Shown: one piece after another, positions 20,789 to 48,572 of the stretch
How the letters are laid out: each line of letters begins with the position of its first letter
Numbering within the stretch: position 1 is the first letter of the stretch
Assembly: GCF_016916835.1 (NCBI RefSeq)
Contig: NZ_JAFFIX010000023.1
Location: 1-64,000 of the forward strand
Length of the DNA: 64,000 nucleotides
Direction: 5' to 3'
Origin: Actinacidiphila bryophytorum
Lineage (GTDB): Bacteria > Actinomycetota > Actinomycetes > Streptomycetales > Streptomycetaceae
Notes under the pieces: generated by a model
What the model saw: the letters and a program-made list of their open reading frames with translations, nothing else
Told to the model about the DNA's origin: nothing
The model's database searches: none
Translations under genes and position numbers: made by a program

Positions 20789-22771
20789 GTGTCAGACCTC
20801 CGTGTGATCATCAAACGCGATTCCGCCGAACCGGAAGAGCGGACGGTCACGACGGGCACGACCGCGGCCGAGCTGTTCCAGGGCGAGCGGTCGGTGGTCG
20901 CCGCCCGGGTCGGCGGCGAGCTGAAGGACCTCGCCTACGCCGTGGCCGACGGCGAGGAGGTCGAGCCGGTCGACATCACCAGCGAGGACGGGCTGAACAT
21001 CCTGCGGCACTCCACCGCGCACGTCATGGCGCAGGCGGTGCAGGAGCTGTTCCCCGAGGCCAAGTTGGGCATCGGCCCGCCGGTCAGGGACGGCTTCTAC
21101 TACGACTTCGACGTCGACAAGCCCTTCCACCCCGATGACCTCAAGGCCATCGAGAAGAAGATGCAGGAGATCCAGAAGCGCGGCCAGCGCTTCTCCCGCC
21201 GCGTCGTCACCGACGAGCAGGCCCGCGAGGAACTGGCCGGCGAGCCGTACAAGCTGGAGCTGATCGGCCTCAAGGGCTCCTCGGCCACCAGCGACGACGG
21301 CGCCGACGTCGAGGTCGGCGCGGGCGAGCTGACGATCTACGACAACCTGGACGCCAAGACCGGCGAGCTGTGCTGGAAGGACCTGTGCCGCGGCCCGCAC
21401 CTGCCGAGCACGCGCAACATCCCGGCGTTCAAGCTGATGCGCAATGCCGCGGCCTACTGGCGCGGCAGCGAGAAGAACCCGATGCTGCAGCGGATCTACG
21501 GCACCGCGTGGCCCACCAAGGAAGAACTGAAGGCGCATCTGGACTTCCTCGAGGAGGCCGCCAAGCGCGACCACCGCAAGCTCGGCACCGAGCTGGACCT
21601 CTTCTCCATCCCCGAGCAGATCGGCTCGGGCCTGGCCGTCTTCCACCCCAAGGGCGGCATCGTCCGCCGGGTGATGGAGGACTACTCGCGCCGCCGGCAC
21701 GAGGAGGAGGGGTACGACTTCGTCTACACCCCGCACGCCACCAAGGGCACCCTCTTCGAGATCTCCGGCCACCTGGACTGGTACGCCGACGGCATGTACC
21801 CGCCCATGCAGCTCGACGAGGGCACGGACTACTACCTCAAGCCCATGAACTGCCCGATGCACAACCTGGTCTTCGACGCGCGCGGCCGCTCCTACCGCGA
21901 ACTGCCGCTGCGGCTCTTCGAGTTCGGCACGGTCTACCGCTACGAGAAGTCCGGCGTCGTGCACGGCCTGACCCGCGCCCGCGGCTTCACCCAGGACGAC
22001 GCGCACATCTACTGCACCAAGGAGCAGATGGCCGACGAGCTGGACTCGACGCTGACCTTCGTGCTCAACCTCCTGCGGGACTACGGGCTCACCGACTTCT
22101 ACCTGGAGCTGTCCACCAAGGACGAGAACAAGTACGTCGGCTCCGACGAGGTGTGGGAGGAGGCGACCGACACGCTGCGCAAGGTCGCCGAGAAGCAGGG
22201 CCTGCCGCTGGTGCCCGACCCGGGCGGCGCCGCCTTCTACGGGCCGAAGATCTCCGTCCAGACCAAGGACGCGATCGGCCGCAGCTGGCAGATGTCCACC
22301 GTGCAGCTGGACTTCAACCTGCCCGAGCGCTTCGACCTGCAGTACACCGCTCCTGACGGCTCCCGGCAGCGGCCCGTCATGATCCACCGGGCGCTCTTCG
22401 GCTCGATCGAGCGCTTCTTCGCGGTCCTGCTGGAGCACTATGCCGGCGCCTTCCCGGCGTGGCTGGCCCCGGTCCAGGCGGTCGGCATCCCGGTCGGCGA
22501 CGCGCATGTGCCGTACCTGCAGGAGTTCGCGGGCGAGGCCAAGCGCAAGGGGCTGCGGGTCGAGGTGGACGCGTCCTCCGACCGGATGCAGAAGAAGATC
22601 AGGACGTGGCAGAAGCAGAAGGTCCCGTTCATGATCATCGTCGGCGACGAGGACATGACCAACGGCACGGTCTCCTTCCGCTACCGCGACGGCTCGCAGG
22701 AGAACGGCATCCCGCGTGACCAGGCACTGGCCAAGCTCGTTGATGTGGTCGAGCGTCGCGTGCAGGTTTGA
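20789..22771 (+). CDS. thrS: Threonyl-tRNA synthetase
   Basis: 660 residues, usual length. Order: TGS domain (1-65), editing domain with [11 protein letters not shown] near 72 and the CxxxH of [10 protein letters not shown], class II core with motif 2 region [26 protein letters not shown], motif 3 [14 protein letters not shown], and the anticodon domain (from about 555). It charges tRNA-Thr and clears mischarged Ser. GTG 20789 ([11 protein letters not shown]) has CAGGAG upstream; the upstream ATG-like frame at 20735 runs through the palindrome and is rejected. Confidence 0.97.
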
Positions 22772-22772
22772 C

Positions 22773-22862
22773 TCGCTCCCCGCGTGAGCGGGGGTGTGCC
22801 GGCCCCTGAGAAGTACGTCGGGTCGGACGACGCCTGCTCCCCGCGCAAGCGGGGGTAGCCCC
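22773..22862 (+). CRISPR. Two-repeat CRISPR-like remnant, type I-E repeat pattern
   Basis: Two 29-base units (22773-22801, 22834-22862) share TCCCCGCG-NN-AGCGGGGGT and line up with the E. coli I-E repeat at the CCCCGCG/AGCGGGG stem and, in the first, at the final CCG. Start-to-start distance is 61 and the spacer is exactly 32 bases (22802-22833), the I-E geometry. There is no leader (the first repeat begins two bases after the thrS stop) and no cas gene in the window. Both hairpins could equally act as a thrS terminator. Confidence 0.5.
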
Positions 22863-22868
22863 CGGGTC

Positions 22869-23531
22869 TCAGCGGCCCGGGGGCAGTTCGCCCTCGCGGG
22901 CGAAGGCCTGGTAGAGCCAGGAGGAGAAGGAGCCGGTCACGGCGCCCAGCAGGGCCAGGCCCATCAGCATCAGGAAGGCCGCGATCACCCTGCCCCAGAA
23001 GGTCACCGGGGTGACGTCGCCGTAGCCGACCGTGGTGAGCGTCTCGCAGGTCCACCACACCGAGTCGCCGAACGTGCGGATCGTCGCACCGGGGGCGTAC
23101 CGCTCCTGCTGGTAGACCGCCAGCGCACCGGAGAAGCCGAGCAGCACCGCCGACATGCCCGCGTAGGAGATCACCCGGCCGTACAGGCTCAGCCGCGGCT
23201 GCTCGTGGCGGCGCTGCATCACCTGGTAGATGTGCACGGCCCGCAGCGGTCGCAGCAGCGGCAGGATCAGCACGACCGTGTCGAGCAGGTGGTGGGCGAC
23301 GTAGCGCGGCCCGAAGCGGTGGCCGCTGAGCCGCAGCCGCACCAGGTAGTCCACGGCGAAGCACGCCCACACCGCGTCGATCAACGCCAGCAGCGCCGTG
23401 TGTGCGGCCTGCGGCCAGCCGGTGGCCAGCACATGGGCCGCGTAGGCGCCGAGAAAGAGCAGCGACAGGAGGAACAGCGGGACCTCGCTGCGGTTCTCCC
23501 AGCGGGCCAGCCGGCTGTCGTCGTCGTCCAT
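22869..23531 (-). CDS. Voltage-gated-like potassium channel
   Basis: 220 residues. Four to six hydrophobic segments; the pore loop TCETLTTVGYGDVTPVTFWGR near 165-185 holds the TVGYGD selectivity filter, followed by the inner helix VIAAFLMLMGLALLGAVTGSF. An S4-like RLRLSGHRFGPR and LLRPLRAVHIYQVMQRR precede. The C-terminal tail is short, with no RCK domain. It conducts K+ across the membrane. ATG 23531. Stop close to the CRISPR-like repeats. Confidence 0.9.
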   Translation of the reverse strand: MDDDDSRLARWENRSEVPLFLLSLLFLGAYAAHVLATGWPQAAHTALLALIDAVWACFAVDYLVRLRLSGHRFGPRYVAHHLLDTVVLILPLLRPLRAVHIYQVMQRRHEQPRLSLYGRVISYAGMSAVLLGFSGALAVYQQERYAPGATIRTFGDSVWWTCETLTTVGYGDVTPVTFWGRVIAAFLMLMGLALLGAVTGSFSSWLYQAFAREGELPPGR

Positions 23532-47298: not shown

Positions 47299-48572
47299 CG
47301 ACTGCTGACGTGAGCACGTTCCAGGCCCCCAAGGGCACCTACGACCTGCTGCCGCCCGACTCCGCCGTGTACCTCGCGGTGCGCGAGGCGATCGCGGCAC
47401 CGGCCCGCCGCGCGGGCTACGGATACGTCGAGACCCCGGGTTTCGAGTCCGTCGAGCTGTTCTCCCGCGGCGTCGGGGAGTCGACCGACATCGTGACCAA
47501 GGAGATGTACACCCTCACCACCAAGGGCGGCGACCAGCTCGCGCTGCGCCCCGAGGGCACCGCCTCGGTGCTGCGCGCCGCGCTCGAAGCCAACCTGCAC
47601 AAGGCGGGCAACCTGCCGGTCAAGCTCTGGTACTCGGGCTCGTACTACCGCTACGAGCGCCCGCAGGCCGGCCGCTACCGGCACTTCTCGCAGGTCGGCG
47701 CCGAGGCGATCGGCACCGAGGACCCGATGCTCGACGCCGAGCTGGTCATCCTGGCCGACGAGGCGTACCGCTCGCTGGGCCTGCGCGGCCACCGGGTGCT
47801 GCTGAACTCGCTCGGCGACCGCGAGTGCCGCCCGGCCTACCGCAGCGCCCTGCAGGACTTCCTGCGCGGCCTGGACCTCGACGAGGACACCCGGCGCCGC
47901 ATCGAGATCAACCCGCTGCGGGTGCTGGACGACAAGCGCGAGTCGGTGCAGCGTCAACTCGACGCCGCGCCGCTCATCTCCGATCACCTGTGCGAGACCT
48001 GCAAGGCCTACCACGAGCAGGTGCGCGAGCTGCTGACCGCGGCGGGGGTGGCGTACGAGGAGGACCCGCGGCTGGTGCGCGGCCTGGACTACTACACCCG
48101 CACCACCTTCGAGTTCGTCCACGACGGGCTCGGCTCGCAGTCCGCGATCGGCGGCGGCGGGCGCTACGACGGCCTCTCGGAGATGATCGGCGGCCCGTCG
48201 CTGCCGTCGGTGGGCTGGGCGGTCGGCGTCGACCGCACGGTGCTGGCGCTGCGCGCGGAGGGCGTCGACCTGGCACTTCCCGCCGCCACCGACGTCTACG
48301 CGGTGCCGCTCGGCGAGGACGCGCGGCGGGCGCTGTTCACCGCGGTCACCGAGCTGCGCAGGGCCGGGGTCGCGGCGGACTTCGCCTACGGCGGCAAGGG
48401 GATGAAGAACGCGATGAAGTCCGCGAACCGCTCCGGCGCCCGCTTCGCGCTGGTGGCGGGCGACCGGGACCTTGCCGAGGGCGTCGTCCAGCTCAAGGAC
48501 CTGGAAAGCGGCGAGCAGGCCCCGGTCGCGCTCGACGCGGTCGTGGCGGCCGTCAAGGAGCGGATGGCCTGA
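47295..48572 (+). CDS. hisS: Histidyl-tRNA synthetase
   Basis: 425 residues, class [17 protein letters not shown] at the start, motif 2 [31 protein letters not shown] and [12 protein letters not shown] for His binding, motif 3 [11 protein letters not shown], then the anticodon domain. GTG 47295 overlaps the upstream stop with GACGAGG just before it; GTG 47310 (MSTFQAPKG) is a plausible alternative but lacks a ribosome site. Confidence 0.96.

Follow-up and report, generated by a model that had tools for sequence, protein, structure and literature searches.

Why should two CRISPR repeats around a single spacer stand directly behind thrS in Actinacidiphila bryophytorum, and where does that spacer come from? 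We followed the locus in the window (the whole analysed stretch of 64,000 nt, the start of contig NZ_JAFFIX010000023.1), in the whole assembly and in thrS genes throughout the Streptomycetaceae. The initial annotation, made from the letters of the sequence, had considered a relic array, a solo array served by distant Cas proteins and repeats reused as terminators.

A single type I-E unit behind thrS

Two 29-nt repeats of type I-E character around a 32-nt spacer just behind thrS, as first annotated, were confirmed at 22773-22862 (Table 1). Repeat 1 starts two bases past the thrS stop, the repeats follow each other at a spacing of 61, and their 21-nt core is 90% identical between the copies. The unit combines repeats of about 29 nt, a CCCCGC/GCGGGG stem and a 32-nt spacer; ordinary I-E arrays of the family have the repeat consensus GTGCTCCCCGCGCCCGCGGGGATGGTCCC and 32-nt spacers in 479 of 512 cases, and because repeat and spacer agree with these arrays we regard the unit as of I-E type and not a product of chance. 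Rfam returned one CRISPR direct-repeat match, on the minus strand and with a score under the gathering threshold. In the 8.05-Mb genome (G000, 96 contigs, completeness listed as 100), a search with CCCCGCGNNNGCGGGG gave nine rows, GCTCCCCGCGNNNGCGGGGG without mismatch occurred in these two repeats only, and the two-repeat unit pattern had a single match; the suggested comparison with other I-E repeats of the genome thus yielded no further exact copy of the repeat core. Neither Cse1 nor Cas1 was found in the 96 contigs, so that the copy in A. bryophytorum is probably dormant. The description as I-E-like, leaderless and solo is therefore borne out, and a relic array is the likely state in this genome.

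Scans of 22500-23000 for terminators and promoters found nothing, and no T-run terminator was detected. The array-less relative L022 (G004) reads TGACGCGACGGCCGCCCCCGGGTCTC behind thrS and retains the separate GC-rich hairpin, which is perhaps where thrS transcription ends. A potassium-channel-like gene (Ion_trans_2; 22869-23531, minus strand) converges on thrS and runs with its 3' end into the hairpin downstream of the array.

Table 1. Positions of thrS, its target site and the adjoining CRISPR unit in the window.
Feature	Position	Strand	Remarks
thrS, threonyl-tRNA synthetase	20789..22771	+	Pfam tRNA-synt_2b, HGTP_anticodon, tRNA_SAD; near-identical relatives; start codon inferred
AAG PAM beside thrS target	22118..22120	+	kept in own thrS
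Target in own thrS	22121..22152	+	22/32 against the spacer
Recoded seed	22124..22129	+	GAGAAC here, CCGGAG in nearest relatives; Pro-Glu to Glu-Asn
thrS stop codon	22769-22771	+	
Repeat 1, TCGCTCCCCGCGTGAGCGGGGGTGTGCCG	22773-22801	+	stem-loop and 5' handle of the guide
Spacer, GCCCCTGAGAAGTACGTCGGGTCGGACGACGC	22802-22833	+	32 nt, thrS-derived
Repeat 2, CTGCTCCCCGCGCAAGCGGGGGTAGCCCC	22834-22862	+	stem kept; 3' end degenerate, like other units
Separate GC-rich hairpin	22858-22884	+	overlaps last bases of repeat 2

Origin of the spacer and its target in thrS

The spacer was compared with phage and plasmid sequences, as the initial annotation had proposed, and its source proved to be thrS instead. 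With a 40-base query (22798-22837) the best phage match had an E value of 0.2 and the best plasmid match one of 0.04, the latter being itself a Tsukamurella thrS gene; both origins were rejected. When 35 genomes from the genus were searched, the spacer region matched thrS of four relatives (G005, G030, G002, G027). Against thrS of G005 (L033) it agrees in 29 of 32 ungapped positions (mismatches 2, 6 and 30) directly after AAG, a protospacer beside an AAN PAM as in type I-E systems, AAN being the PAM reported for the I-E system of S. avermitilis, which is also reported to be active (PMC12231136).

The match to the adjoining thrS is poorer, 22 of 32 with four seed mismatches, and compared with its own flanks the spacer only modestly beats shuffles (P 0.016). 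Own thrS has 58 differences from the nearest relative, L022, over the last 1400 bases, and the only 6-base window there with at least four of them is the target seed. Seed-like changes also occur beside no array (relative L019 reads Asp-Glu-Glu at this place), GA stands at seed positions 4-5 in 21 of 204 thrS genes, three being hosts of arrays, and at seed position 2 the spacer mismatches each of the eight best relatives among the matches listed.

Recurrence of the unit in Streptomycetaceae

We searched 394 Streptomycetaceae genomes for a thrS end followed by an I-E stem. The pattern matched 37 genomes and its reversed control none, and 28 of the 30 pattern loci retrieved were thrS. To the pattern loci we added 30 loci from the genus, the matches listed in a scan of named genomes and another 120 thrS regions, which gave 206 distinct thrS loci. 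Because these were partly gathered by the hairpin pattern, the sample is enriched for arrays and its counts are no prevalences; the 119 pool loci gathered apart from the pattern genomes already taken contain one host.

A first hairpin with at least 10 of 12 stem bases was present at 76 of the 206 loci and a second repeat, scoring at least 9, at 43. When a mean match to the thrS pool of at least 20/32 was taken to mark a thrS-derived spacer (the best of 200 shuffles per spacer gave 19 to 23), 31 of the 206 loci carried one, directed at 11 sites on both strands. The second repeat is present in 29 of these 31 hosts (L052 is without it, L102 ends with the contig), and 29 of the 43 two-repeat loci pass the spacer threshold. 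The targets, on either strand, lie 69 to 1392 nt upstream of the gene end; the start of the array is within about 20 nt of that end. At 10 of the 11 sites AAN is the most frequent PAM in the pool; at site -69 it is GAG, with AAG in 33. Locus L051 was read 3 nt off site -177, which brings the raw output to 12 sites, and was dropped from positional tests. The thrS pool leaves out L041, L045, L069, L072, L115, L120, L130, L138 and L141, of which L120 (29/32, PAM CGT) and L130 (spacer of L065 type) would otherwise count as hosts; L140 and L164 belong to the 206 set and were too short for the 204-gene pool.

The arrays have a patchy distribution over a thrS tree of 205 rows, with 30 changes for presence and 18 for target site, and a solo hairpin behind thrS was recorded 31 times in the tree sample. 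Loci such as L049/L043 (G029), L055, L062 and L074, among others, show a solo I-E-like hairpin just behind thrS with neither spacer nor second repeat, which looks as recombination between two repeats would leave it. The initial annotation had reasoned that a CRISPR array would be refuted by a genome free of other such repeats together with both hairpins and the spacer conserved behind thrS in relatives: the genome does hold no other such repeats and repeats do recur behind thrS, but the spacers differ.

Ordinary arrays were rejected as the source of the thrS spacers. From 20 cas-region loci, 16 of which yielded spacers, 512 spacers were compared with every third thrS gene of the pool, and none exceeded the reversed control (maximum 24 versus 25), whereas thrS-linked spacers score 24-31 against thrS.

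Several further units behind thrS deserve description. Five of them (L076, L136, L164, L200, L232) share one spacer, TTCATACCGGTTGTCGGACACACGAAGGTGC in L076. It fits thrS sites at 19/32 at most, gave no match among phage and plasmid records, and occurs at a single place in each of three host genomes. At L057/L346 (G200) two repeats with intact stems stand behind thrS, around a spacer that matches neither thrS nor the flanks above chance. Locus L050 (G184) has a unit with the -177 spacer behind a thrS that shares just 74% identity with its closest counterpart in the pool; the genome's best thrS score is far under most of the family (E 8.5e-195), which suggests a replaced gene.

A Cascade footprint in the spacers of single-guide units

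Cascade ignores every sixth position of its target. Measured against the thrS pool, spacer drift was 0.32-0.45 at every-sixth (6n) positions and 0.00-0.15 at 6n+3, in the same direction at 6 of 6 plus-strand sites (p 0.031); on the minus strand a 6n excess appeared in 7 of 7 hosts at five sites, three only marginally. Against their own targets the spacers mismatch at 84 of 150 6n positions versus 161 of 807 elsewhere; for own targets of minus-strand sites the rates at 6n and 6n+3 were equal (0.49 each). The third-position wobble phase of the targets, on both strands, was discounted as evidence, since GC-rich coding sequence with an AAN PAM should produce it anyway.

Furthermore, the thrS-matching units conserve the 5' handle of repeat 1 (mean 1.32 bits, n=33), which is degenerate in repeat 2 (0.46 bits) and lost in solo hairpins (0.39 bits), although terminal repeats of ordinary arrays can also be degenerate, so that the handle pattern alone proves little. 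As judged from these alignments, the units appear to keep what one crRNA needs.

Escape of the linked allele

In 30 hosts (L051 omitted) the match of own thrS was set against that of its 20 closest thrS genes with no array at the same site. At non-6n positions, those read by Cascade, own thrS is the worse match in 28 of 30 (mean +1.87, p 9e-6; over the 11 sites p 0.007), whereas at every-sixth positions own thrS and relatives do not differ (p 0.52). Two hosts at -1392 have an own thrS slightly better matched than the relatives at read positions. The AAN PAM is lost in 9 of 30 hosts versus 1.85 expected (P 7e-8 by host), namely in 6/6 at -504, 2/2 at -1392 and 1/3 at -1206; with sites as the unit of counting, a majority of hosts lack it at 2 of 11, which falls short of significance (P 0.15).

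The seed comprises positions 1-5 and 7-8 (PMC5904413). By a target rule of our own, which asks for AAN, zero seed mismatches and at most five non-6n mismatches, own thrS qualifies in 1 of 31 hosts versus 14.3 expected from other thrS genes; no pool gene qualifies for the A. bryophytorum spacer, given its seed mismatch at position 2, and few do for some other spacers. Judged by these comparisons, the linked thrS copy is altered so that the guide would miss it.

Lone units beside other genes

From 160 genomes that gave no Cse1 match (80 for each of two patterns), 23 single-unit loci away from thrS were tested with about 1.5 kb per side, and the spacer matched a neighbouring gene in 8 of them (L341, L349, L350, L355, L362, L364, L367, L373). 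Shuffle P was at most 0.002 (500 shuffles) in seven, and L373 scored above all 200 of its shuffles; L342 (shuffle P 0.016) was scored as non-matching and L360 was left out. By Pfam the matched genes include hisS (L341), class-II DAHP synthase (L355), cobN (L349; CobN), a DUF3817 gene (L350) and a UbiA gene (L367); the gene at L364, AAA/SMC_N by Pfam, was taken for recN, and that at L373 presumably is ffh, to judge by a motif that we take to be typical of it. The eight units mismatch at 28 of 40 sixth positions versus 38 of 216 elsewhere (p 1e-10), and their PAMs are CGG, CGG, CGA, GCC, ATG and three times AAG.

At the hisS site the array-bearing genome has CGG versus AAN in 28 of 29 relatives, loci taken from the best 30 of 65 matching genomes (L400 was omitted, its best match being the array itself). 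The remaining relative, L402, has the same CGG and target and no unit behind hisS. The window's own hisS (47313-48107) lies about 25 kb from thrS; the relative G019 has a similar unit, and none was seen behind hisS here.

Cas genes in carrier genomes

Cse1 is present in 177 of the 394 Streptomycetaceae genomes, and carriers are not enriched for it: it occurs in 15 of 37 genomes with the hairpin and 7 of 16 with a thrS-derived spacer; G193 and G123 are examples of carriers that have it. This fits cas genes that come and go, and it fits relics too. The open frames with Cse1 matches in the family form two size classes, each with many members, at about 500-750 and about 1500-1750 codons; these may be different I-E variants.

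Discussion

We propose that a one-guide I-E cassette tied to a recoded thrS probably works like a cleave-and-rescue (poison-antidote) element or a barrier of allele incompatibility. Read-through from thrS would yield one crRNA with the handle of repeat 1, the spacer and the stem of repeat 2. This crRNA would fit the common thrS allele of other streptomycetes, with an AAN PAM and a near-full match, and spare the linked allele, in which PAM, seed or other bases read by Cascade are changed. In a recipient with a resident I-E Cascade-Cas3, the incoming cassette would have the sensitive resident thrS cut and would supply the immune copy, and in a carrier cell entering DNA with a sensitive thrS would be cut. 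The proposal takes from sequence comparison the thrS origin, the PAM, the single-guide anatomy, the escape of the linked allele and the repeated finding of such units, for 11 sites in thrS and next to other genes; to these it adds that the guide would be transcribed, that other alleles would be cut and cells killed, and that the unit would spread to a selfish or a barrier benefit. It gives no account of how the units arise beside their genes.

Synthetic cleave-and-rescue elements, which link a guide against an essential gene to a recoded copy, are engineered, whereas the thrS unit is natural and bacterial, would draw its nuclease from another locus and may kill. With ordinary Streptomyces I-E arrays it shares the 29-nt repeat with the same stem, the 32-nt spacer and the AAN PAM; unlike them it has one spacer, no leader that we could see and no cas genes, stands beside the gene it fits and has a linked target that escapes. 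Among the mainly open-access papers covered, the titles and abstract openings listed contained no such gene-linked guide unit, and the word thrS is absent from the excerpt of a review of actinomycete CRISPR (PMC12231136). The nearest published case appears to be the hisS-matching spacer of Pelobacter carbinolicus, likewise an I-E-type spacer against an own aminoacyl-tRNA synthetase gene (PMC2923632). That spacer is described as matching perfectly and as lying at the trailer end of an array that has 111 spacers and is accompanied by cas genes (PMC2923632), whereas the thrS spacer belongs to a single unit beside its gene and its target site is changed. Archaeal guides against chromosomal genes of other organisms are comparable, but are spacers of archaeal arrays in general, and the thrS unit is alone and linked to the matching gene (PMC3285040). 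Mini-CRISPR arrays borne by viruses also have one spacer and no cas genes of their own; they differ in being viral, in targeting competitor viruses and in having no linked immune target (PMC8616872). Guides of I-F3 systems for attachment sites resemble the thrS units in addressing conserved genes with tolerance of wobble changes, but are part of a transposon, while the thrS units vary in the distance from target to array (PMC11406308).

The unit could instead be a barrier of benefit to the host, the guide being kept for destroying kin DNA with a foreign allele and not for its own spread. The same sequence evidence speaks for this as for the cleave-and-rescue reading, and archaea have been described whose spacers match genes on the chromosomes of other archaea (PMC3285040). 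Tight linkage to one targeted gene and the patchy distribution on the thrS tree (30 changes) are explained no less well by a self-linked element, and we consider a pure host barrier unlikely, if still a serious candidate.

Also unlikely, in our estimate, is a functionless scar of autoimmunity, in which Cas1-Cas2 once inserted a piece of thrS into a repeat-like hairpin behind that gene and the host survived by target change or loss of cas genes. Self-targeting is known to end in such escape or in loss of function (PMC8616872), the A. bryophytorum genome is without Cse1 and Cas1, and many relatives have a solo hairpin behind thrS. Left unexplained by a scar are thrS spacers that lie beside thrS and not in the ordinary arrays examined (0 of 512), their recurrence at 11 sites, and read positions that are conserved in comparison with 6n positions.

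Autoregulation, in which a crRNA-guided Cascade would pair partially with its own gene and tune thrS without cutting, has 12 of the 31 hosts in its favour: these have kept AAN with no more than one mismatch in the seed (7 at -177, 2 at -1206, 2 at -1086, 1 at -69), so that own thrS could still be bound. Binding by E. coli Cascade needs just the PAM and about five seed bases, and PAM-distal mismatches stop interference and not binding (PMC5904413). Against this stand the worse fit of own thrS than of relatives at read positions in 28 of 30 hosts, the PAM loss in nine of 30, a thrS in A. bryophytorum that keeps the PAM with four seed mismatches and so does not keep PAM and seed together, and the lack of Cse1 enrichment in carriers. 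In these alignments the guide fits the common allele of thrS, an essential gene, better than the linked one, which argues against simple autoregulation in most hosts and makes it, for us, distinctly improbable.

If thrS were the attachment gene of a CRISPR-associated Tn7-like transposon and the spacer its homing guide, this would be in keeping with I-F3 guides, which target conserved genes and tolerate wobble changes (PMC11406308), and with the report of I-E systems with tnsB and tnsC in Streptomycetaceae (PMC12231136). Such a guide calls for a fixed distance from target to insertion, whereas targets lie 69-1392 nt from the gene end on both strands and the array starts within some 20 nt of it, and we give this explanation very little credence. 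The terminator function considered in the initial annotation fails almost entirely: stable stem-loops do stand right behind the stop codon, but no T run follows the stem as in an intrinsic terminator, a separate GC hairpin lies downstream and is present in the array-less L022 too, and the origin of the spacer would be left unexplained.

As autoregulation and scar fit poorly, we propose the cleave-and-rescue-like pair of guide and immune allele. Self-matching spacers are usually taken for accidents; here guide and escaped target adjoin repeatedly, and the mismatch pattern has the shape of Cascade. More tentatively, it is possible that streptomycetes carry natural CRISPR poison-antidote alleles, in which a one-guide I-E unit linked to a housekeeping gene (thrS, hisS, class-II DAHP synthase, cobN and others) would cut the alleles of other strains and spare its own recoded one; such alleles would replace those of other strains by means of those strains' Cas machinery and would amount to natural cleave-and-rescue drives in recombining bacteria. 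If the function holds, pairs of guide and recoded gene would have evolved in bacteria before engineers made them, CRISPR would make alleles incompatible or drive them in conjugating soil bacteria, and natural sequences would show how resistance to such guides evolves, through PAM loss, recoding of the seed and silent changes.
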